From: Allobosea sp. 12-68-7
Lineage (GTDB): Bacteria > Pseudomonadota > Alphaproteobacteria > Rhizobiales > Beijerinckiaceae
DNA: 32,213 nucleotides
Direction of reading: 5' to 3'
Assembly: GCA_002279705.1 (NCBI GenBank)
Contig: NCCO01000009.1
Location: forward strand, 1-32,213
Of the stretch, positions 19,762-31,956 are shown in pieces. The notes below the pieces were generated by a model, which was not told the origin of the DNA, did not search any database, and worked only from the letters and a program-made list of their open reading frames with translations. The translations under genes and the position numbers were made by a program. How positions within the stretch are numbered: position 1 is the first letter of the stretch; each line of letters begins with the position of its first letter.

Positions 19762-19838
19762 GATGAGGTCCCTCGACACCAATCCTGATCGTACCGTAGA
19801 TGGACTCACATGCAGGTCGTTGTGGTTTGAGGACACCG

Positions 19839-21007: not shown

Positions 21008-21021
21008 CCCATGAACATGGG
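21008..21021. promoter_or_regulatory. CCCATGAACATGGG palindrome upstream of the two-component operon (site 1)
   Basis: This is a perfect 6-2-6 inverted repeat (CCCATG, AA, CATGGG) 105 bp before the response-regulator start. Closely similar sequences occur at 24125-24138 and 26123-26136, each upstream of another gene in this region. The architecture resembles sites of NarL-family dimers, so autoregulation by the adjacent regulator is a reasonable inference. Confidence 0.55.
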
Positions 21022-21060
21022 CTGTCGCCGCCGGCCGACAGCGGCTAGCATGCGACAGCC
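21020..21060. other. 9-bp inverted repeat in the leader of the two-component operon
   Basis: GGCTGTCGC (21020-21028) and GCGACAGCC (21052-21060) are exact reverse complements with 23 nt between. An inner CTGTCG/CGACAG pairing (21022-21027 with 21036-21041) competes with it. It overlaps the last two bases of the palindrome at 21008. It could be an mRNA leader structure or a 3' hairpin for the AraC gene 170 bp upstream. Confidence 0.4.
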
Positions 21061-21126
21061 CTGACGGGGGTGGGCCATGGCGCGGGTCGGTGGTATGCGA
21101 GCCGGGGCGGGGGAGCAAAGCGGCCC

Positions 21127-21777
21127 ATGATCGAGGTGCTGCTCGTCGAGGATGACGCGCCGACACGCTGGCGCCTCCAGGACGCGCTGGGGGCGACCGG
21201 AGAGTGCGCCGTCACCGCTGTTGCGACCGTCACGGAGGCCCGGACCCATCTCTGCGAGGCGGTGCCCCGCGTGCTGCTGACCGATCTGCAACTTCCCGAC
21301 GGCCATGGCCTCGACCTGATCCGGGAGACGCGCCAGCGCCATCCCGAGACGGAGATCATGGTGATCTCGATCCTCGGCGACGAGGAGAGCGTCATCGCCG
21401 CGATCCGTCAGGGTGCGACCGGCTATCTCCTCAAGGACGCCTTCCCGACCGACATCGCGGCGACGGTACGCGACCTCGTCGCCGGCCATTCGCCGATCTC
21501 GGCCTCGATCGCGCGCTTCATCGTGCGGCGCACGCAGGTGCAGCCCGCCGCGGCCCCGGCCCCGCAGGGGCTCAACACGGCGCGGCTGACGCCGCGCGAG
21601 ATCGACATCCTCTGGGGCATCGCCAAGGGCTTCAGCTATGCCGACATCGCCGGGCATCTTGGCCTGTCGCGGCAGACCGTGCCCGGCCACATCAAGAACA
21701 TCTACCGCAAGCTCGAGGTCAACACGCGCGGCGAAGCGGTGTTCGAGGCGCTGCAGCAGGGCCTGATCCGGCTGTGA
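21127..21777 (+). CDS. NarL/LuxR-family response regulator
   Basis: The 216-residue protein has a receiver domain at 1-120. E8, D9 and D10 form the acidic pocket, D53 in LLTDLQLPDGHG is the phosphorylation site, S81 and K103 (GYLLKDAF) complete the switch. A LuxR-type HTH lies at about 149-214: LTPREIDILWGIAKGFSYAD, then HLGLSRQTVPGHIKNIYRKL. The recognition region VPGHIKN differs slightly from the common VKTHVKN. Start ATG 21127 gives MIEVLLVEDD. The stop overlaps the GTG of the kinase gene by 3 bp, so regulator and kinase are translationally coupled and almost certainly partners. Confidence 0.94.
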   Translation: MIEVLLVEDDAPTRWRLQDALGATGECAVTAVATVTEARTHLCEAVPRVLLTDLQLPDGHGLDLIRETRQRHPETEIMVISILGDEESVIAAIRQGATGYLLKDAFPTDIAATVRDLVAGHSPISASIARFIVRRTQVQPAAAPAPQGLNTARLTPREIDILWGIAKGFSYADIAGHLGLSRQTVPGHIKNIYRKLEVNTRGEAVFEALQQGLIRL

Positions 21778-23693
21778 GCACGGCGGCGGCCGAGCCGGAA
21801 TCACGCCAAGCGGCGCCTGTCGGCGCCCCACGACTGGCGCTGCGGCTGCTGCTTTATCTCGCGCTGCAGGCGCTCGTCGTGGTCGGCTGTCTCGGGCTCG
21901 CGGCCCTGCCGACGCCGGAGCCCCCGCCGCGCTGGCAGCTGACCGAGGCGTGGCTCGAGCCGCCGGGCGCGGCGGTCAGCCTGCCGCATCACCACAGCGC
22001 CCGGTTCACGATGGCGGACCCGCCCCGCTATGGGCTGGCCTTCGACAGGCCTGCCGGCCTGCCGGAGGAGCCCTGGTCGGTGCTGCTGCCGCGCTTCACC
22101 AACGGTGTCGCGGTCGCGGTCAACGGCGTCGAGATCCTCGACAGCCGTCGCAATCCGGCGGCGAACCGGCCCGACCGAAGTTCCCCCGAGATCGCGGTGA
22201 TCCCGTCCTCCCTGCTGCGGGAGGGGCGCAACGAGCTGACGGTCAGGCTCTTCGTCTGGGGGCCGCTCACCGGCTTTCTCGACCGCATCCATGTCGGTCC
22301 GGACGCCATGCTGCGGCCGGCCCATGACCAGCGTGTCCTGCTCTTCGTGACGCTGCCGATCGTTCTGGCCGCCTGGCAGAGCATCCTCGCGGTCATCCTG
22401 GGCATGATGTGGCTGATGCGCCGGCACGAGCCGGAATATGGGGCGCTCGCCGCCTCGATGGCGCTTGGCGTGGCTCAAACCTTCATTTCGGCGCCGAGCG
22501 GCCAGTCGCTCTATGCCGGGCTCAACGCGGTGCTGATCGCCTCGGCGCCGCTCGAGAGCGCCTTCGCGGTGGTGTTCTTGGTCCTGTTCTTGGGGCTCAG
22601 GCTGCCGCGGGCCGCGGCGCTCCTCTTTTTGCCTGGGTTGATCATCACCGTTACAGGCCTGTTGGGTGGTCCGGGGCCGGTTCGCATCCTCTATCTCCTG
22701 CTTGGGCCGTTCACCGTCATGTTCTGCCTGGTGCTGGCGGCGGTGCTCATCGCGCTCGTCTTCCTCAGGCGGCGCGACACGATCACCCTCGTGCTCGGCA
22801 GCGCGGTGACGGTGGTCCTTTTCTTCTGGGCCTTCGATATCCTCTCTATCCTCGACGTTGCGTCGGACCGGCGTATCTTCTTCTCGCGCATCTCCTATTC
22901 GGCCATGGTGATCGCGGTCGGCATCGGTCTGACCTGGCGCTTCGCCCGCGCGCTGAACCAGGTCGACAGCTTCGCCGGGTCGATGGTGACGCTGGTGCGC
23001 GAGGCGGAGGACAAGCTGCGGGCCAGCCTCGCACGTGACGAGGAACGCGCGCGGGCCATCGCGCTGTCGAGTGAGCGCAGCCGGCTGATGCGGGACCTGC
23101 ATGACGGGCTCGGCGGCCAGCTCGTCAGCATCGTCGCGCTGAGCGAGCGCCAGCAGGCCGCGCCGATCGGCGAGGCGGCGCGGGCCGCGCTGAAGGATCT
23201 GCGGCTGGTGATCGACGCCATGGACGATATCGGCGGCGATCTGATGCTGGCGCTCGGGGCCTGGCGGGAGCGAATCGCGGCGCAGTTGCGGGCCCACAGC
23301 ATCGCGTTGGCGTGGCGTGTGCTGACGCCGCAGGGGCTGCCCGTCCATCGCGAGCTGCGGCCGGGCCATGTCATCCAGATCCTGCGCCTGCTCGACGAGG
23401 CGGTGACCAATGCGGTCAAGCATGCGGGTGCCGGCACGATCACTGTCGAGATCGAGACCGTCGCCGCGACGGATGGAGATCGCGGCCGTATCAGCGTGCG
23501 GGACGACGGCCGTGGCTTCGACGCCGAGGCCGGCAGCGCCGCCCCGCCTTTGGCCGGGCGGGGCCTCGCCAATATGCGCCAACGGGCGGAACGCTGCGGC
23601 GGGCAGCTCGCGATCGTCTCCGGTCCGGAGGGGACACGCGTGACGCTCGACCTTCCCAGCCGCTTCGCCGATCTCGACGCACCCCGGGTTTGA
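21774..23693 (+). CDS. Membrane histidine kinase with HisKA_3 core
   Basis: The 639-residue protein starts with GTG inside the regulator's last codons. A first TM helix spans about 21-45. A periplasmic domain of about 140 residues follows, containing PWSVLLPRFTNGVAVAVNGV and GRNELTVRLFVWGPLTGFL, which looks beta-rich like a jelly-roll. Seven hydrophobic helices then run from about 185 to 390. This layout recalls 7TMR-DISM sensors. The NarL-partner core follows: RLMRDLHDGLGGQLVS with H443, N-box LLDEAVTNAVKHA with N546, G1 DDGRGFD and G2 GRGLANMRQRAE. It should phosphorylate the adjacent regulator. The signal is unknown. Confidence 0.9.
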   Translation: MSTAAAEPESRQAAPVGAPRLALRLLLYLALQALVVVGCLGLAALPTPEPPPRWQLTEAWLEPPGAAVSLPHHHSARFTMADPPRYGLAFDRPAGLPEEPWSVLLPRFTNGVAVAVNGVEILDSRRNPAANRPDRSSPEIAVIPSSLLREGRNELTVRLFVWGPLTGFLDRIHVGPDAMLRPAHDQRVLLFVTLPIVLAAWQSILAVILGMMWLMRRHEPEYGALAASMALGVAQTFISAPSGQSLYAGLNAVLIASAPLESAFAVVFLVLFLGLRLPRAAALLFLPGLIITVTGLLGGPGPVRILYLLLGPFTVMFCLVLAAVLIALVFLRRRDTITLVLGSAVTVVLFFWAFDILSILDVASDRRIFFSRISYSAMVIAVGIGLTWRFARALNQVDSFAGSMVTLVREAEDKLRASLARDEERARAIALSSERSRLMRDLHDGLGGQLVSIVALSERQQAAPIGEAARAALKDLRLVIDAMDDIGGDLMLALGAWRERIAAQLRAHSIALAWRVLTPQGLPVHRELRPGHVIQILRLLDEAVTNAVKHAGAGTITVEIETVAATDGDRGRISVRDDGRGFDAEAGSAAPPLAGRGLANMRQRAERCGGQLAIVSGPEGTRVTLDLPSRFADLDAPRV

Positions 23694-23699
23694 GCGGCG

Positions 23700-24026
23700 T
23701 TAGAAGCGCCCGACGCGGTTGACCGGGCCGCCGCGATTGGCCGGCGTGCCGGGGCGCACACCGACGCCGCGCGCGCCGACGCCGACCCCGCGATAGGGCG
23801 TCGCCACCGCGCGGGCGGCCGGGGCGGCGACCACGGGCGCGCCGACCACGACCGGCGCAGGGCGGACCACGACCGGAGCCGGGCGCGCGACGCAGCCCTT
23901 CGGCACGCCCACCGTCTTGCAATAGACGACCGCCTCGGCCGGCGCGGCGCCCAGCGTCAGGCCCGCCAGCGCGGAAAGCGCGGCCAGGGCGAGGCCGTTG
24001 CGCGTGAACTCTGGAATGCGAACCAT
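23700..24026 (-). CDS. Small secreted Pro/Val/Ala-rich protein
   Basis: The 108-residue product has a signal peptide (NGLALAALSALAGLTLGAAP, AEA) and then VVYCKTVGVPKGCVARPAP. This two-cysteine motif is seen in small hypothetical proteins of Bosea- and Bradyrhizobium-like bacteria. The rest is low-complexity PAPVVVRPAPVVVGAPVVAA followed by a Gly/Arg-rich tail, so it is probably disordered and periplasmic or envelope-associated. It converges on the kinase gene with 6 bp between stops. Its start lies 99 bp from the CCCATGAAAATGGG site, which is shared with the divergent MscS gene. The function is unknown. Confidence 0.75.
   Translation of the reverse strand: MVRIPEFTRNGLALAALSALAGLTLGAAPAEAVVYCKTVGVPKGCVARPAPVVVRPAPVVVGAPVVAAPAARAVATPYRGVGVGARGVGVRPGTPANRGGPVNRVGRF
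23844..23885. repeat. Tandem 21-bp coding repeat
   Basis: GACCACGACCGGCGCAGGGC+G (23844-23864) is followed directly by a copy with 19 of 21 bases identical (23865-23885). It encodes the PAPVVVR repeats of the small secreted protein. Confidence 0.75.
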
Positions 24027-24124
24027 GGTCTGGTGCTCCCTCTATTGCGCGTCTGCGGCCCGGCCGGACGACCTTGCCGTTGCGACGTCGCTGCAATCTG
24101 AGACTCTTCGCCCGCCATTGGTAT

Positions 24125-24138
24125 CCCATGAAAATGGG
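24125..24138. promoter_or_regulatory. CCCATGAAAATGGG palindrome upstream of the MscS gene (site 2)
   Basis: It matches site 1 at 13 of 14 positions, losing one dyad base (AATGGG instead of CATGGG). It sits 85 bp before the MscS start and 98 bp before the divergent small secreted protein gene, in a 197-bp gap otherwise free of genes. Confidence 0.5.
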
Positions 24139-24223
24139 GTGGCGGGGCCCCGCCCGCGATGACGTGATACGCTGGCCTGACGTATCGAAACTGGCAGATG
24201 CGGCTGGCCGGAGCGAGGATATC

Positions 24224-26116
24224 ATGCCGGGCGAATTAGCCATGCCTGCCGTCGCCGCGGCGGGGGAGACCCTGCGCAGTGGCATCGCGCCGCTCGATGC
24301 GGTGCGGCGTCTGATCGAGACGCTCGACCGGGAGGTCGTCACGGCTCTGACGACCGTGCCTAGGTTGCCGGGCGAGTTGGTCGCTGTGGTCGAGCGCGGC
24401 TGGCCTCATGCGGCGACCATGCTGCCGCGTACGCTAGCCGTCTGCCTCATCGTCGCGCTGGTCTATGTCGCGACGCGGAGCATGCTCGCGCGAGCGCGGC
24501 GGCGGGCCGGAACCGCCCGGAGTGCGCTCGCCGGGATGGCGGGGCTCGCCGGCCTGGAAATCCTGGCGCTGCTGGCGGCGGCGCTGGCCGGACGGGTGCT
24601 GCTGGTGCGGGGGCTCGGCATCCTGCCGGGCTCCGAGGCGCTGCCGCGCGACATGGTGATCGCGCTGATGCGCTGGCTGATGGGGCTGACTCTCCTGATC
24701 ATCCTCTTCCAGCCGGCGATGAAGCGCTTCCGGCTGACCCGCGTCGACGACGCCGGCGCGCGCAAGGCGGTCCGCCGCTTTGCGATTCTGCTTGCGCTTG
24801 CCCATCTGCATGCGGTCCTGCTCGGCGCTGCGCAGGGGGTCGGCCTGAGCGGCGAGGCCGCCAAGCTGATCTCCGGGCTCGTCGCTGCCGCGCTGACGGC
24901 CAGCGCGATCCAGATGTTCGTGTCGCTGGGGCGACACGGCATCGGTTCGGGGGCGCAGCTGCTGGCGATCGGGCTCAGTGGCCTCGCCCTCGTCTTCTGG
25001 CTCTGGGGCTGGGTGAGTGGGGTCTTCGCGCTCTATCACGGCGCGGTGGGGACGATCGTCGTGTTGCTGCTGGCGCTGGCGCTCGACCGGGCGGTGGCCG
25101 TCAGCATCCGCGATTCGCGCCAACCGGCCGAGATGCGGCAGCTCTTCGTGCTGCGCGTGGTGATCGACAGCATCGCCGTGGTCATGATCCTGCGGATCGG
25201 CCTCGAATTCTGGCTGGTCGACGCTTTCGGCTGGCTGCCCACCGCCGGCGCGCAAATGTTCGGTTACCGGCTGAACTTCGCCTCGATCGTGTTCGTGCTG
25301 GGGGCCGCCTGCGCCGCGCTCGTGCATGTCTGGACCGAGGCGGCGCTCACGCCGGTGGAGGGGGCCGGCACGGCACAGGAGCGGGATGCGCGCCTCGCCC
25401 GGCTTTCGACGGTCTTGCCGATTCTGCGCGCGACCACGATCACGCTGATCGGTGTGGTGTTCTCGCTGGTCGGACTCTCGGCGCTCGGCATCGACATCAC
25501 CCCGCTGATGGCCGGTGCCGGCATCGTCGGCCTGGCGATCAGCTTCGGCTCGCAGGCCCTGGTCAAGGATATCGTCTCGGGGGTGTTCCACATCGTCGAC
25601 GACGTCTTCCGGATCGGCGAATCCGTCGAGGTCGGTGACCGGCGCGGCCTCGTCGAGCAGATCAACCTGCGCAGCATCCGTCTGCGCGAGGAGGACGGCC
25701 GGCTTCACACCATTCCGCTCGGCGAACTCGGTGCGGTCACCAATCACAGCCGCAAACTGGTGCGGCTGAGCGTCACCGTGGCGCTCGACCGCGCGCCGGA
25801 CCACAACGACATCATGCTGTTCACGCGCCAGGCCGTCGCTGCCCTGCGCAGCGAGCCGCCGATCCGCCAGGCCATCGTCGGCGACATCGCAGCCAAGCTT
25901 GACGAGCCCGCGGAGAGCGAGAGCGCCGCGCTGGTGCTGGCCTTCAGCATCGGTGCCGCGAGCGCCGAGCGTGGCCGGCCGCTGATCCAGCGGCTGGTCG
26001 AGGAGGCGATCGACGAGCTCGCCATTCCCGGCATCCGCCGCAGCGTCACCGTCACGACGGATGCGCTGTCGAGTGCCGTGCCCGTGGCGGAGGCTGGACC
26101 CCTGGCTGCCGCATGA
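24224..26116 (+). CDS. MscS-family mechanosensitive ion channel
   Basis: The 630-residue inner-membrane protein has about ten to eleven hydrophobic helices from residue 65 on and ends in an MscS module. The pore-lining TM3 is ITPLMAGAGIVGLAISFGSQ (near 425-445) followed by ALVKDIVSGVFHIVDDVFRI. The beta domain VGDRRGLVEQINLRSIRLRE and HTIPLGELGAVTNHSRK matches the cytoplasmic vestibule. It would open under membrane tension to release solutes during hypo-osmotic shock. The extra N-terminal helices put it with the larger YbdG/YbiO-like members. The chosen ATG 24224 has GAGCGAGGA at good spacing; the frame is open from 24074, but its early part lacks family character. Confidence 0.92.
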   Translation: MPGELAMPAVAAAGETLRSGIAPLDAVRRLIETLDREVVTALTTVPRLPGELVAVVERGWPHAATMLPRTLAVCLIVALVYVATRSMLARARRRAGTARSALAGMAGLAGLEILALLAAALAGRVLLVRGLGILPGSEALPRDMVIALMRWLMGLTLLIILFQPAMKRFRLTRVDDAGARKAVRRFAILLALAHLHAVLLGAAQGVGLSGEAAKLISGLVAAALTASAIQMFVSLGRHGIGSGAQLLAIGLSGLALVFWLWGWVSGVFALYHGAVGTIVVLLLALALDRAVAVSIRDSRQPAEMRQLFVLRVVIDSIAVVMILRIGLEFWLVDAFGWLPTAGAQMFGYRLNFASIVFVLGAACAALVHVWTEAALTPVEGAGTAQERDARLARLSTVLPILRATTITLIGVVFSLVGLSALGIDITPLMAGAGIVGLAISFGSQALVKDIVSGVFHIVDDVFRIGESVEVGDRRGLVEQINLRSIRLREEDGRLHTIPLGELGAVTNHSRKLVRLSVTVALDRAPDHNDIMLFTRQAVAALRSEPPIRQAIVGDIAAKLDEPAESESAALVLAFSIGAASAERGRPLIQRLVEEAIDELAIPGIRRSVTVTTDALSSAVPVAEAGPLAAA

Positions 26117-26122
26117 GCGCTC

Positions 26123-26136
26123 CCCATGAACATGGC
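26123..26136. promoter_or_regulatory. CCCATGAACATGGC near-palindrome upstream of the Cys-rich protein gene (site 3)
   Basis: It matches site 1 at 13 of 14 positions and lies 87 bp before the start at 26224. A second ATGGG half-site follows directly (CATGGCATGGG), so an extra half-site binding mode is possible. Confidence 0.5.
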
Positions 26137-26223
26137 ATGGGCGGGAGCGGCGCATCGCGCCATGGTGAAGAGGCTCGCCGGTCACGCGACCGCGGGGCGA
26201 CTGCCATCCGAGAGGATCGACCC

Positions 26224-26451
26224 ATGAAGACATCGCTGTTGCTCGCCTGCGCCCTCCTGGTCGCGGGCACCTCCTTCGCCGGCGCCCAGTCGGGCCCGAC
26301 GCGCGCCGAACAGATGGCCTGCCGCTCGGACGCGCAGAAGCTCTGCGCGTCCTTCATCGGCCAGCCGCAGCCGATGAACGGCTGCCTGCGCAACAACAAG
26401 GCCAAACTCTCCGCCGATTGCCGCAAGGTGGTCGAGGCGCGCGGCGGCTGA
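26224..26451 (+). CDS. Small secreted cysteine-rich repeat protein
   Basis: The 75-residue product has a signal peptide (MKTSLLLACALLVAGTSFAG, AQ) and a mature part of about 53 residues. CRSDAQKLC, then GCLRNNKAKLSADC, matches the Cys_rich_FGFR/GLG1-type repeat (PF00839), with the fourth cysteine before RKVVEARG. Single-repeat periplasmic members are common in alphaproteobacteria and their function is not established; disulphide bonding is likely. ATG 26224 follows GAGAGGATCGACCC. The open frame from 26113 includes the operator-like site and is not preferred. The hydrolase gene follows after 56 bp. Confidence 0.82.
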   Translation: MKTSLLLACALLVAGTSFAGAQSGPTRAEQMACRSDAQKLCASFIGQPQPMNGCLRNNKAKLSADCRKVVEARGG

Positions 26452-26507: not shown

Positions 26508-27641
26508 ATGCGAAGCGGGCTGGGCCGGATCGCCCTGATGGGGGCCGCGTGGCTCGCGCTGGCGGCGGGCGGCTGCGCCGGACCGGGCCGCGGGCTGCTG
26601 GTGCCGGTGGCGAAACCGCCCGCCGAGGCGAAGACCCGCACCGTACTGGCGGTGACGACCCGCAGCCCGGCCATCGCGCCGCCGGGTCATCTCTTCTCGG
26701 GCGAGCGTGGCGACGCGGCGCGCTATGCCAGCCTCACTTTGTCGCTGCCGCGGGGGCGGGCGCCGGGTTCGGTTCCGACCGATGCCGATAGTCCCGACCC
26801 CGACAAGCATATCGCGCTCATCGCGGCGCGCGAGCTCGACGCCGCCGGTTTCGCCGGGCTCGCCCGGACCGAGCTGAAGACGCGGCGCCGGGCGCTGGTC
26901 TTCACCCATGGCTACAACACGCAATTCGATGAGGCGGTCGTGCGCCTCGCCCAGATCGTCGATGACACGAACTATGCCGGTCTGCCCGTCCTGTTCAGCT
27001 GGCCTTCGCGCGGTGAGGTCAGGGATTACGGCTACGACAAGGACTCCGCCAATTTCAGCCGGGACGCGATGGCCGAGCTGCTGGCGCGGCTGGCGCGCGA
27101 CCCGGGCATCGAAGGCATCGACGTCTTCGCCCATTCGATGGGCAACTGGCTGACGATGGAGACGCTGCGGCAGCTCTCGATCGCGGGCGACCAGAAGACG
27201 ATGAGGCGGCTCGGCACGATCGTGCTGGCGGCGCCCGACATCGACATGGATGTGTTCCGCACCCAGATCGCGCGGCTGCGCCCGATCGCTGCCCGCATCG
27301 TGCTCTACGCCTCGCGCGACGATTACGCGCTCGGCCTGTCGCAGCGGCTGTCCGGCGGCAAGATCCGGGCCGGGGCGAACACCGATCCCGGCCAGTTCCG
27401 CGCGCTCGGCATCGAGGCGCATGATCTGTCGCAGGTCGCCGGCGGTCTCGGCCGCAACCACAACAAGGCCTTCGGGGACGGCACGACCATTGCCACGATC
27501 GGGCGGGCGATCTCGGATGGTGCGGGGTCCGCCCGGCAGCAGGGATCGTCCCTGAACGAGCGCATCGAGTCGTTTGGCCGTTCTGTGACGCTGCTGGGCG
27601 ACGCCCTCATTCCCGGCCCGCCCCTGGGAGGATCACGATGA
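26508..27641 (+). CDS. DUF900-type alpha/beta-hydrolase, probable lipoprotein
   Basis: The 377-residue product has a short signal ending LALAAGGC (Cys23), a plausible though weak lipobox. The hydrolase domain has ALVFTHGYNTQFDEAV (oxyanion region), LFSWPSRGEVRDYGYDKDSA, the nucleophile elbow DVFAHSMGN with Ser210, and APDIDMDVFRTQI supplying the acid. LSQVAGGLGRNHNKAFGD offers the catalytic histidine region. The substrate is unknown. AGGAGG lies 8 bases before ATG 26508, an excellent ribosome site that decides the start. It overlaps the RND adaptor gene by 4 bp (ATGA), so the hydrolase and pump are made together. Confidence 0.87.
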   Translation: MRSGLGRIALMGAAWLALAAGGCAGPGRGLLVPVAKPPAEAKTRTVLAVTTRSPAIAPPGHLFSGERGDAARYASLTLSLPRGRAPGSVPTDADSPDPDKHIALIAARELDAAGFAGLARTELKTRRRALVFTHGYNTQFDEAVVRLAQIVDDTNYAGLPVLFSWPSRGEVRDYGYDKDSANFSRDAMAELLARLARDPGIEGIDVFAHSMGNWLTMETLRQLSIAGDQKTMRRLGTIVLAAPDIDMDVFRTQIARLRPIAARIVLYASRDDYALGLSQRLSGGKIRAGANTDPGQFRALGIEAHDLSQVAGGLGRNHNKAFGDGTTIATIGRAISDGAGSARQQGSSLNERIESFGRSVTLLGDALIPGPPLGGSR

Positions 27642-28795
27642 CCGCCCCTTCCGTTTCCGCCCGGCGGATCATGATGCCGGCGCTGCTCGGTCTCGCCTCG
27701 CTGCTGGCCGGCTGCAACGAGAAGCCCGCTGCCTCCGCGCCGCCTCCGGCCGAGGTTCGCGTGGCGGTGCCGGTCGCACGGCCGGTGACGCGCTATCTTG
27801 AGCTCACGGGCCAGACCGCCGCGGCGAAGCGGGTCGATCTCGTGGCGCGGGTCTCGGGCACGCTGAGCGAGATCCGCTACAGCGACGGCGCCGCCGCGAG
27901 GCAGGGCGACGTGCTCTTCGTGATCGAGCCGGACAATTACCGGCTGAGCCTGCAGCTCGCGGAAGCCGCCGAGGCGCAGCAGAAGGCCCTGCTGGTCCAG
28001 GCCGAGGCCGATCTCGCCCGCCAGAAACAGCTCGCCCAGCGACAGGCCGCCTCGGAGGCTGCGCTCGACAGCGCCCAGAGCCGGCGCGATTCGACGGCCG
28101 CCGCCCGCGAGCAGGCCGCAGCCCAGGTGGCGCAGGCAAAGCTCAACCTGGCCTATACGGAGGTCAAGGCACCTTTCGACGGCATCGTCTCGGCCCATCT
28201 CGTCGACCAGGGGGCGCTGGTCGGCGTCGGCGGGCCGACGCTGCTGGCCTCGATCGTCCAGAGCGACCCGATCAAGGTGCGCTTCTCGCTCGACGAGCAG
28301 ACCGTGCTGCGGATTCGCGAGGCGATGCGCCAGCGCGGCCTGACGCTCGCCGGGCTCGGCAGCATCCCCGTCGAGATCGGGCTCGACACCGATGCCGGCT
28401 ATCCGCATCTCGGCGAGCTCGACTATGTCGCGCCGGAGCTCGACATGGCCAGCGGCACGCTGGCGGTCCGGGCCTCCGTGCCGAACCCGAAGGGCGTGCT
28501 GCTGCCGGGGCTCTATGTCCGCGTGCGGCTGCCGCTGCAGAAGGACGTGCCGTCCTTGCTGGTGCCGGAGGCGGCGCTGGGTGCCAGCCAGACCGGGCGC
28601 TATGTGCTGGTCATCAACGGGCAAGACCTTGTCGAGCAGCGGCCGGTCGAGATCGGCGAGGCGAGCGAGGGCGGCCTGCGCGTCATCCGCGCCGGCCTGT
28701 CGGCGGGCGACCGCGTCGTCGTCGGCCTGATGCAGAACGCCATCCCCGGCAGCCGGGTGCGACCCGTCAACGACGTCGCGAAGGCCGCGCGCTGA
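27638..28795 (+). CDS. RND efflux periplasmic adaptor (membrane fusion protein)
   Basis: The 385-residue product has a lipobox SLLAGC (Cys26). The MFP order follows: barrel-sandwich half RVDLVARVSGTLSEIRYSDG, a helical hairpin of about 60 Gln/Ala/Glu-rich residues (LAEAAEAQQKALLVQAEADL through QVAQAKLNLAYTEVKAPFDG), then beta-barrel and membrane-proximal domains (KVRFSLDEQTVLRIREAM, DYVAPELDMASGTLAVRASV). It bridges the RND pump to an outer-membrane channel of TolC type, which is not encoded in the window. It overlaps its upstream neighbour by 4 bp and its downstream neighbour by 1 bp. Confidence 0.93.
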   Translation: MTAPSVSARRIMMPALLGLASLLAGCNEKPAASAPPPAEVRVAVPVARPVTRYLELTGQTAAAKRVDLVARVSGTLSEIRYSDGAAARQGDVLFVIEPDNYRLSLQLAEAAEAQQKALLVQAEADLARQKQLAQRQAASEAALDSAQSRRDSTAAAREQAAAQVAQAKLNLAYTEVKAPFDGIVSAHLVDQGALVGVGGPTLLASIVQSDPIKVRFSLDEQTVLRIREAMRQRGLTLAGLGSIPVEIGLDTDAGYPHLGELDYVAPELDMASGTLAVRASVPNPKGVLLPGLYVRVRLPLQKDVPSLLVPEAALGASQTGRYVLVINGQDLVEQRPVEIGEASEGGLRVIRAGLSAGDRVVVGLMQNAIPGSRVRPVNDVAKAAR

Positions 28796-31700
28796 TGGCC
28801 AAATTCTTCATCGAGCGGCCGGTCCTGGCCAATGTCATCGCGGTCCTGACCGTCATCCTCGGGCTGGTGGCGCTGCTGCGGCTGCCGGTCGCGCAATATC
28901 CCAATGTCGTGCCGCCGACGGTGCAGGTGACGGCGCGCTATCCCGGCGCCAGCGCGGCCGTGATCGCGCGCGAGGTCGCGCTGCCGATCGAGCAGAAGGT
29001 CAACGGCGTCGAGGGCATGATCTACATGTCCTCGACCAGCACCAGCGACGGCCTCTACACGCTGACCGTGACCTTCGCGATCGGCACCGATGCCGACAAG
29101 GCGCAGATCCTGGTGCAGAACCGCGTCGCCGCGGCGCTGCCGCAACTGCCCTCCGTCGTCCAGACGCAAGGGGTGCAGACCAACAAGCGCTCGACCGCGA
29201 TCCTCCAGATCGTCGCGCTGACCTCCGACCGGGCCGGGCATGACAGCCTGTTCCTGTCGAATTTCGCGACGCTGAACCTGCTCGACGAGATCGCGCGGCT
29301 GCCGGGCATCGGCGCCGTCAACGTCTTCGGCGCCGGCCAATATGCGATGCGGATCTGGCTCGATCCGCAGAAGATGCAGCTGCGCGGGCTGCTTCCCTCC
29401 GACATCGTCAACGCGGTCAACCAGCAGAACCGCTCGGTCGCGTCGGGCCAGCTCGGCATGGCCCCGACCGCCGGCGATCAGGCTTTCCAGACGACGCTGC
29501 TGACGCCCGGCCGGCTCGACGAGGTCGAGGCTTTCGAGGCGATCATCGTGCGCGCCGACGGCAACCGCATCACCCGCCTGCGCGACGTCGCCCGCGTCGA
29601 GCTCGGCGCTCAGGCCTATGGCCAGGATTTCCGGCTGAACGGACAGCCCTCGGCGGGGCTCGCCATCTTCCAGCTGCCGGAGGCGAATGCGCTCGAGGTG
29701 GCGAGGCTCGTTCAGACACGGATGACCGCGCTCTCGGCACGCTTTCCCGAGGGGATGGGCTGGAGCGTGCCCTTCGACACGACGCGCTTCGTCGAGGCCT
29801 CGCTCGGCGCGGTCTACAAGACGCTGGTCGAGGCGGCCGTGCTGGTGCTGCTGGTGATCCTGATCTTCCTGCAGGACTGGCGCGCGACGCTGGTGCCGGC
29901 CACCACGGTGCCGGTGACGATCATCGGCGCCTTCGCGGCGATGGCGGCGCTGGGCTTCACCGTCAACATCTCGACGCTGCTGGCGGTCGTGCTGGCCATC
30001 GGCATCGTCGTCGACGACGCCATCGTCGTGGTCGAGGGCGCCGCCCATCACATGGAGCGGGGCCTGAGCCCGCATGACGCGACGGTGCGGGCGATGGAGG
30101 AGCTGATCGGCCCGATCATGGGCATCACGCTCGTGCTGATGGCGGTGTTCCTGCCGGCCGCCTTCCTGCCGGGGCTGAGCGGCGAGATCTACCAGCAATT
30201 CGCCCTGGTGATCGCCGCCACCGCGCTGATCAGCGCCGTCAACGCGGTCACGCTGAAGCCGGCGCAATGCGCGCTCTGGCTGCGGGCGCCCAAGCCCGTC
30301 GCGCAGCGCGCCTGGATCTACCGGATGTTCGAGCGTGGCTACGGCGCCTGCGAGCGGGCCTATGTCCGTCTGGTGCGGCGGCTGGTGGCGCGCAGCGCGG
30401 CGGTCTTCACGGTGACGCTGCTGCTCGTCGGGACTTCCGTCTATGCGCTGAGCCGCATTCCGACCTCCTTCCTGCCGGTCGAGGACCAGGGCTACATGCT
30501 GGTCTCGGTGCAGCTGCCCGACGGGGCCTCGCTGTCGCGCACGACGGCGGCTCTCGACGAGGTGACGAAACGGGCGCGCGCCGTGCCGGGCGTGGACAAG
30601 GTGATCGCGATCGCCGGCCTCTCGGCGCTCAACGACAATGCCAGCCTCGCCAATGCCGGCGTCGCCTATGTCATGCTGACCGACTGGAAGGCGCGCCGGA
30701 AGGGCGAGGATCTGCTCGGCCTTTACGGCGCGCTCAACCGGGCGATGGCCGATCTCGAGGACGGCGCGGCGCTGGTGCTGCCGCCGCCGCCGATCCAGGG
30801 CATCGGCAACGCCTCGGGCTTCACCATGAAGGTCGAGCTGCGCGACGGCAGCTTCGACTATGCCAAGCTCCAGCGCCTCGCCGACGCCATCGCCGAGCGG
30901 GCTCGCGCGCAGAACCGCTTCCAGGCGGCGCGCAACACCTTCAGCGCCCAGGCGCCGCAGGTGGAGCTCGCGATCGACCGGACCAAGGCGGAAGCGCTGG
31001 GCGTCTCCTTCGGCGCCGCTACGGACGCGCTCGGCGCCTATGTCGGCTCGGCCTATGTCGGCCAGTTCAGCAAGGGCGGCCGCGTCTTCCAGGTCTTCGT
31101 CCAGGCCCAGGCCGAGGCACGCATGGAAGCGGAAGGGCTACGGACGCTGAAGCTGCGGGCCAGGAGCGGCGAGATGGTGCCGCTGGGGGCCATCGCCGAC
31201 ATCCACCCCGGCATCGGCCCGTCCCTGATCAGCTTCCACAACCTCTACCCGGCGGCGACCCTGATCGGCGCGCCCAACCGCGACGTCAGCTCGGGGGAGG
31301 GGCTCGACATCCTCGCCGCGATCGCGCGCCAGACGCTGCCGCCCGGCACGGGCTATGAGTGGGCGGCGCTCTCCTATCAGGAGAAGGAATTGGCCGGGCA
31401 GGTCTTTCTCGTCTACGGCTTGAGCCTGCTCCTGGTCTATCTCGTGCTCGCCGGGCAATACGAGAGTTGGATCGCGCCGCTCGGCATCATCCTCTCCGTC
31501 CCGCTGGCGCTTCTGGGGACGGCCGGCGCGATGCTGGCGCTCGGGCTCTCCAGCAATCTCTACACCCAGATCGGGCTCGTCCTGCTGATCGCGCTCTCGG
31601 CCAAGAACGCGATCCTGATCGTCGGCTTCGCCCGCGACCTGCATCTCAAGCAGGGCCGGCCGCTGGCGGAGGCGGCAGTCGAAGCGGCGCGGCTGCGGCT

Positions 31701-31956
31701 GCGGCCGATCGTGATGACCTCGCTCGCCTTCATCCTCGGGCTGGTGCCGCTGGTGCTGGCGAGCGGGGCCGGCGCCAATGCGCAGCGCTCGATCGGCTTC
31801 GCCACGCTGACCGGCATGATCGGGTCGACCCTGCTGACCGTCGTGGTCGTGCCGTCGCTCTTCGTCGTGCTGCAGACGCTGGAGAGCCGGTGGCGCGGCG
31901 GTGCCGATGCCGCACCCGTGGCCGGTGAGACGGCGCATGGCGCGGAGCCTCGCTGA
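28795..31956 (+). CDS. HAE1-family RND efflux pump, inner-membrane subunit
   Basis: The 1053-residue product is full length for AcrB-like pumps. It starts MAKFFIERPVLANVIAVLTV. The proton-relay aspartates are D407 and D408 in GIVVDDAIVVVEG, and the partner lysine is K937 in LSAKNAILIVGFARD. Two large periplasmic loops and twelve TM helices are recognisable. Small differences from AcrB occur in TM4 (VEGAAHHMERG instead of VENVERxM) and TM10 (IVGFA instead of IVEFA). It uses proton motive force to expel drugs, detergents or other amphiphiles through an adaptor and a TolC-like channel. The start codon shares one base with the adaptor stop. Confidence 0.95.
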   Translation: MAKFFIERPVLANVIAVLTVILGLVALLRLPVAQYPNVVPPTVQVTARYPGASAAVIAREVALPIEQKVNGVEGMIYMSSTSTSDGLYTLTVTFAIGTDADKAQILVQNRVAAALPQLPSVVQTQGVQTNKRSTAILQIVALTSDRAGHDSLFLSNFATLNLLDEIARLPGIGAVNVFGAGQYAMRIWLDPQKMQLRGLLPSDIVNAVNQQNRSVASGQLGMAPTAGDQAFQTTLLTPGRLDEVEAFEAIIVRADGNRITRLRDVARVELGAQAYGQDFRLNGQPSAGLAIFQLPEANALEVARLVQTRMTALSARFPEGMGWSVPFDTTRFVEASLGAVYKTLVEAAVLVLLVILIFLQDWRATLVPATTVPVTIIGAFAAMAALGFTVNISTLLAVVLAIGIVVDDAIVVVEGAAHHMERGLSPHDATVRAMEELIGPIMGITLVLMAVFLPAAFLPGLSGEIYQQFALVIAATALISAVNAVTLKPAQCALWLRAPKPVAQRAWIYRMFERGYGACERAYVRLVRRLVARSAAVFTVTLLLVGTSVYALSRIPTSFLPVEDQGYMLVSVQLPDGASLSRTTAALDEVTKRARAVPGVDKVIAIAGLSALNDNASLANAGVAYVMLTDWKARRKGEDLLGLYGALNRAMADLEDGAALVLPPPPIQGIGNASGFTMKVELRDGSFDYAKLQRLADAIAERARAQNRFQAARNTFSAQAPQVELAIDRTKAEALGVSFGAATDALGAYVGSAYVGQFSKGGRVFQVFVQAQAEARMEAEGLRTLKLRARSGEMVPLGAIADIHPGIGPSLISFHNLYPAATLIGAPNRDVSSGEGLDILAAIARQTLPPGTGYEWAALSYQEKELAGQVFLVYGLSLLLVYLVLAGQYESWIAPLGIILSVPLALLGTAGAMLALGLSSNLYTQIGLVLLIALSAKNAILIVGFARDLHLKQGRPLAEAAVEAARLRLRPIVMTSLAFILGLVPLVLASGAGANAQRSIGFATLTGMIGSTLLTVVVVPSLFVVLQTLESRWRGGADAAPVAGETAHGAEPR

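Follow-up and report, generated by a model that had tools for sequence, protein, structure and literature searches.

The question raised by this locus is which regulator reads a 14-bp inverted repeat that occurs three times in front of neighbouring transcription units, and which of the adjoining genes it controls. The window (the whole 32,213-nucleotide stretch analysed) lies on contig NCCO01000009.1 of Allobosea sp. 12-68-7 (assembly GCA_002279705.1; genus Bosea), and it had been proposed in the initial annotation to hold a local, autoregulated regulon of the NarL-family response regulator (RR) encoded next to the first repeat. As judged from comparative genomics, the three dyads are very probably operators of this RR, which would act as a class II activator with positive autoregulation and a mainly local regulon.

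21008..21021, forward strand: operator-like dyad 1, CCCATGAACATGGG, in the promoter of the RR and histidine kinase genes; orthologous position kept in 94/97 loci
24125..24138, no strand assigned: operator-like dyad 2, CCCATGAAAATGGG, between the divergent small secreted protein gene and the MscS gene
26123..26136, forward strand: operator-like dyad 3, CCCATGAACATGGC, in the promoter of the Cys-rich protein gene
21127..21777, forward strand: NarL/FixJ-family RR (receiver plus GerE helix-turn-helix, HTH), proposed binder of the dyads, assigned by Pfam and by the invariant D53 and SRQTVP

The positions and letters of all three copies were confirmed, copies 2 and 3 each differing from copy 1 at one position. 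The dyads are located 105 bp (RR, 21127), 103 bp (MscS, 24242) and 87 bp (Cys-rich, 26224) from the respective ATG codons; dyad 2 is also 98 bp from the ATG of the divergent small secreted protein gene (24026, minus strand), and the gap between the MscS stop codon and dyad 3 is six bases. When the genome assembly (4,569,382 bases, 312 contigs, 92% complete) was searched, CCCATGAAMATGG matched three times, each time at one of these sites in the window, and a backwards control pattern gave 0 matches. Allowing up to two mismatches to CCCATGAACATGGG gave 34 matches genome-wide versus 2 for the control, palindromic places being scored on both strands. Elsewhere in the genome, one-mismatch 14-mers were found at two places (contigs C60 and C206), both inside open frames (longest open stretch 150 codons at C60 and 281 at C206), which suggests coding sequence, open frames being weak proof in such GC-rich DNA. 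The clustering of the dyads is real, and their exact form is specific to this locus within this genome.

A scan of relatives' contigs gave 80 loci, the best 80 of 416 relatives. Bradyrhizobium accounted for most of them, and there were also four labelled Bosea, a single one each from Camelimonas, Mesorhizobium and an alphaproteobacterium, and a record labelled Frankia. RR orthologues of at least 84% identity were present in 9/67 genomes of the genus, and orthologues at E ≤ 1e-45 in 13 of the 397 genomes sampled across the order. The conserved core of the dyad is CCATGA-NN-ATGG. In the forward orientation this core (CCATGANNATGG) was located within 300 bp upstream of the RR in 94/97 orthologous loci, mostly 112-118 bp before the reference codon, and in 95/97 with either orientation accepted; the 97 loci comprise 93 different upstream sequences, some genomes being present in duplicate (e.g. 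L093 and L176). For a redundancy check, 48 representatives under 80% identity were counted separately. With the 6-2-4 spacing fixed beforehand and the word itself not preselected, the most frequent spaced word among them was CCATGA..ATGG (46/48), and identity averaged 0.996 over the ten core columns versus 0.56 over 172 other upstream columns. By chance, the core appeared in 14 of 19,400 Markov-shuffled upstream sequences. Only the forward core was used for the 94/97, Markov-shuffle and 48-representative counts, and either orientation was accepted in the gene-by-gene, 80-locus and genus counts given below.

Alignment of orthologous intergenic regions agreed with the initial proposal in that the dyad was kept upstream of RR orthologues in several families. 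The core was retained as TACCATGAACATGGTA in L231, a locus from another family with an RR only 48% identical, and L105 has no 14-mer with up to two mismatches, yet the core is present (ACCATGAATATGGC). Upstream of non-orthologous RRs, the exact core was found in either orientation in none of 22 loci. Across 80 loci (1.54 Mb), 233 of the 234 cores fell in the interval from 320 bp before the RR start to 5.6 kb past it. The record labelled Frankia sp. RB7 (L168) also bears the cluster; its RR groups among Bradyrhizobium in a tree built from 43 of 90 RR rows, and the record is probably mislabelled.

The genes standing behind the second and third sites are as follows.

23700..24026, reverse strand: conserved target of site 2, coding for a small secreted protein (CKTVGVPKGC loop, C-terminal NRGGPVNR motif)
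24242..26116, forward strand: MscS-type channel, possible second target of site 2; clustered in Bosea and two other families, not in Bradyrhizobium loci
26224..26451, forward strand: conserved target of site 3, coding for a small secreted protein with four Cys (Cys_rich_FGFR-like)
26508..31956, forward strand: DUF900 hydrolase, RND adaptor and RND pump genes, in the same direction as the Cys-rich gene and nearly contiguous; probable accessory members of the third unit

When the window proteins were searched by tblastn, the conserved cluster consisted of the RR, the kinase, the divergent small secreted protein and the small Cys-rich secreted protein. The last was compared with PF00839 (Cys_rich_FGFR, GLG1-type), which the window copy matched at 17.7 bits (cut-off 22) and 20/20 members at E ≤ 0.1 (best 8.2e-6). 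In 80 of the 83 loci with both small genes, the distance from site 2 to the secreted-protein start was 98 nt (interquartile range 98-100) and that from site 3 to the Cys-rich start was 96 nt (94.5-96), and the separation of the two sites varied from 31 to 2056; the three other loci were left out as lying outside preset distance windows or having one site shared. The site-to-gene distances being fixed and the inter-site distance variable, each site is therefore tied to its own gene. The core was found upstream of 84/84 Cys-rich, 83/84 secreted-protein and 9/11 MscS genes, L100 being too short at the secreted gene for this count. The MscS misses were L175, whose aligned start lies within the gene, and L233, which has a mismatched site; L233 was also the only secreted-protein miss. 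In L175 (6163-7981, genome G106), the MscS match is broken in two with a change of frame between the parts, as a frameshift or a sequencing error would produce.

In the genus, the site accompanies close homologues of the Cys-rich gene in 9/9 genomes that have the RR and in 0/2 that lack it, and the secreted-protein gene had it in 7/7 linked copies and 0/17 unlinked paralogues. This genus count leaves out L256, at a contig edge, and L270, where the match came in two parts; L270 does have the core, and the genome of L256 (G019) has CCCATGAAGATGGG 100 bp from the gene. It also leaves out one strong secreted-protein row lacking a locus and the weak secreted-protein rows; among weak rows set aside, the core was found in none of the four secreted-protein ones fetched and none of six Cys-rich-like ones. 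A second, unlinked CKTVGVPKGC-type gene without a dyad is present in the window's genome (G000:C187:3972-4226, L278), and such paralogues are scattered through the genus. The fixed distances at the RR, secreted-protein and Cys-rich genes, together with the absence of the site at the 22 non-orthologous RRs and the 17 unlinked paralogues, argue for the local autoregulated regulon initially assigned to the adjacent regulator.

The assignment of site 2 to MscS was not borne out in relatives. No MscS gene lies between the secreted-protein and Cys-rich genes in the loci of Bradyrhizobium, Camelimonas and Mesorhizobium; nearly all MscS-free loci with both small genes have two sites in the single intergenic region, and the Bradyrhizobium ones keep site 2 at roughly 98 bp from where the divergent secreted-protein gene starts. 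The Bradyrhizobium comparison thus lends no support to MscS being the principal target of this site. An insertion of MscS confined to Bosea was also considered and dropped, since two loci of two further families (L233 and L234) have MscS with three sites kept, one of them with a mismatch. L234 has no detectable Cys-rich gene, and its third site stands directly before DUF900. The MscS-side sequence just past dyad 2, GGGGTGRYGG, is common to eight aligned Bosea copies (including the window, and with one genome counted twice as L093 and L176), so that in Bosea MscS may yet be a main target. Overall, the channel is probably an accessory target. Of all proposed targets it shows the least conservation, and the osmotic link drawn in the initial annotation rests on it. 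A 95-nt tRNA-Ala called by ARAGORN inside the MscS coding sequence (24541-24635) is most likely a false call.

Promoter-like elements downstream of the dyads were predicted as follows.

21023..21028, forward strand: putative -35-like element TGTCGC, one base past dyad 1
21046..21051, forward strand: putative -10-like element TAGCAT, 24 nt past dyad 1 and 17 nt past the -35-like element
26161..26166, forward strand: putative weak -10-like element CATGGT, 24 nt past dyad 3

At the RR promoters, TANNNT occurs 23 or 24 nt past the dyad in 93/97 loci, with no more than two loci at any of the other offsets between 10 and 39, and TGTCGC follows the dyad immediately or after one base in 73/97 loci (TGTCAC in 11). 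If TANNNT is the -10 element, the spacer is 17 bp and the centre of the dyad lies near -42.5 or -43.5. A dyad just upstream of the -35 element and clear of the -10 element is in the usual position of a class II activator. The RR promoter thus likely has class II geometry, with the dyad abutting the -35-like element relative to a predicted start point. An RNA element at the RR site was judged unlikely, because the dyad is upstream of the conserved -10-like hexamer. At the Cys-rich promoters, NANNNT was present 24 or 25 nt past the dyad in 79/79 unique sequences.

The RR itself matched Response_reg (8.8e-19, 68.2 bits; cut-off 30.2) and GerE (3.1e-14, 52.8 bits; cut-off 23.5) in Pfam. Residues E8, D9, D10, D53, S81 and K103 were invariant in 20 aligned orthologues, as was the SRQTVP segment of the HTH, so that by its domains and residues this protein is a NarL/FixJ regulator having a receiver, a LuxR-type HTH, a conserved phospho-acceptor and conserved active-site residues. 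Its gene is followed by that of its presumptive partner.

21774..23693, forward strand: sensor histidine kinase with one N-terminal transmembrane (TM) helix, a periplasmic beta-sandwich, a 7-TM-like bundle and a HisKA_3-like/HATPase_c core

HATPase_c was found in 30/30 kinase members (window copy 59.1 bits, cut-off 26.4), and HisKA_3 in 30/30 at E ≤ 1 (best 2.2e-5), with the window copy at 21.7 bits, below the cut-off of 24. For 7TMR-DISM_7TM, 15/30 members matched at E ≤ 1 (best 5.7e-5), and the window copy scored 9.3 bits against a cut-off of 29. The structure comparison hardly reached the beta-sandwich, and therefore no fold was assigned to this part. In the proposed mechanism, the membrane kinase would sense a cell-surface signal via the beta-sandwich and the 7-TM-like bundle and phosphorylate D53 of the regulator, a dimer of which would bind the 14-bp dyad through two CCCATGA-type half-sites. 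The bound dyad, centred some 42-43 bp ahead of the start point, would abut a weak -35 element, and RNA polymerase would be recruited in class II style. The predicted outputs would be the regulator-kinase operon itself (positive autoregulation), the divergent small secreted protein with the CKTVGVPKGC loop, and the small Cys-rich secreted protein, followed in Bosea by the DUF900 and RND genes. A feedback in which the CKTVGVPKGC-loop and four-Cys mini-proteins act on the kinase beta-sandwich as ligand or modulator, in a closed-loop surface-sensing cassette moving between genomes, is speculative and has a small chance of being correct.

Several observations weigh against the activator model. The RR site is degenerate in L232, carries one mismatch in L152 and has the core on the opposite strand only in L113; site 2 of L233 has one mismatch, and the Mesorhizobium locus L114 has just one shared downstream site. 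NANNNT fixes only two bases, and the Cys-rich -10 is thus weak evidence by itself; where a -10 would be expected, the secreted-protein promoter shows none that is clear, and the MscS side none that is consistent over seven unique loci. Furthermore, each genus genome contains 1 to 15 matches to the relaxed motif SCCATGAWNATGGS, whether or not the RR is present (palindromic places scored twice), and specificity must therefore rest on context as well as sequence. With 67/67 genus genomes matching, with or without the RR, this motif was rejected as a genome-wide regulon finder. Fifteen extra matches were inspected (14 in ten relatives' genomes and one, C182, in the window's genome), most of them in long open frames, and they were treated as background except for a site upstream of an adhesin gene (L220, L221) and short or ambiguous places (L224, L228). 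In 4 of the 28 Bradyrhizobium genomes searched, CCCATGAATATGGGAGGAC stands upstream of the adhesin-like gene (about position 1500 of L289, L290, L291 and L292), which was judged YadA-head-like by eye from its repeats and is adjoined by a divergent MFS-like transporter gene. From this position of the site, the adhesin gene is a possible fourth member of the regulon.

It is unlikely that the regulator binds the dyads and mainly represses, for instance in the unphosphorylated state with the signal relieving repression. The sequence does not fix the sign of the effect and the dyad is near the -35 element, but at the RR promoter it is located just upstream of the -35 and leaves the -10 uncovered, as is usual for class II activators, and the -35 elements and the Cys-rich -10 are weak. 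Still less probable is another DNA-binding protein that reads the dyads and has the two-component genes merely among its targets. Binding of the dyads by the RR is itself a prediction, and the candidate site before the adhesin gene would be an additional target of such a protein; on the other hand, the genus Cys-rich homologues have the site with the RR and lack it without the RR, and 233/234 cores lie in or beside the cluster. The neighbouring AraC-type gene at 19800 was judged an unlikely binder, being found in only one (L172) of 86 loci, several of which are short upstream.

Chance similarity or a dispersed repeat element is exceedingly improbable as the origin of the dyads. One- and two-mismatch forms do occur elsewhere in the genome, but the exact genome count and the fixed promoter geometry speak against this explanation, and the conservation across families refutes it. 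Activation by the RR through its own local operators is the reading retained here.

Systems of this kind are well known; in the literature searched, neither this member nor its operator and secreted outputs appear to have been described. None of the papers among the matches listed described the motif or the system, and the motif strings occurred in contexts unrelated to this system, as far as titles and the opening lines of abstracts tell. Like NarL/NarP of E. coli and their NarL/FixJ kin, a group in which inverted-repeat operators occur, the RR combines a receiver with a GerE HTH; its best solved relatives were NarL (1a04), DevR (3c3w) and VraR (7ve6), and its best NCBIfam models were MadR, NarL and MctR, all far below cut-offs. 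It differs from NarL-type systems in the CCCATGA half-site, the 14-bp dyad, the SRQTVP segment and the confinement of sites to its own cluster. BldM of Streptomyces is also of the NarL/FixJ type. According to an extract from PMC4125116, it uses a single palindromic operator, the 16-bp TCACcCgnncGgGTGA. BldM is an orphan atypical regulator with a genome-wide regulon, whereas the RR of the window has a cognate kinase, keeps the phospho-acceptor and would serve a regulon that is local. NarP binds heptamers arranged as 7-2-7 inverted repeats, as stated in an extract from PMC7380067. Among solved structures the kinase core was closest to DesK and VraS, a likeness to the LiaSR/VraSR/DesKR systems, and its NCBIfam matches were MctS, NarQ, UhpB, MadS and LiaS, all far below cut-off; unlike those systems, this one has a sensor with a periplasmic beta-sandwich and a 7-TM-like bundle, and its outputs are unrelated small secreted proteins. 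An operator, a promoter architecture and a target list are thus proposed for an apparently undescribed two-component system through comparative genomics alone. Its hosts are plant-associated and environmental bacteria, many Bradyrhizobium among them, and the function of two uncharacterised small secreted protein families becomes directly testable.

Three same-genus genomes without the RR have a distant relative of it (36-37% identity by tblastn), with the kinase gene preceding that of the regulator. These sister loci have a dyad richer in GC, CCC(G/A)TGATCGCGGG or its reverse.

L282, 7167..7180: sister dyad
L283, 5590..5603: sister dyad
L285, 5126..5139: sister dyad

These dyads are followed by GTCGC and a -10-like TATCGT at a distance that, counted by eye, equals the 24 nt of the RR promoter in the window, and the recognition helix of the sister regulators differs from that of the window RR. 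No such dyad was seen in three other distant relatives examined alongside, and the pattern was spotted after the fact in related genomes. As a lead, the sister loci fit the idea that recognition helix and half-site may change together, and if they hold up, CCCATGA versus CCCGTGA would provide a natural comparison of this joint change.

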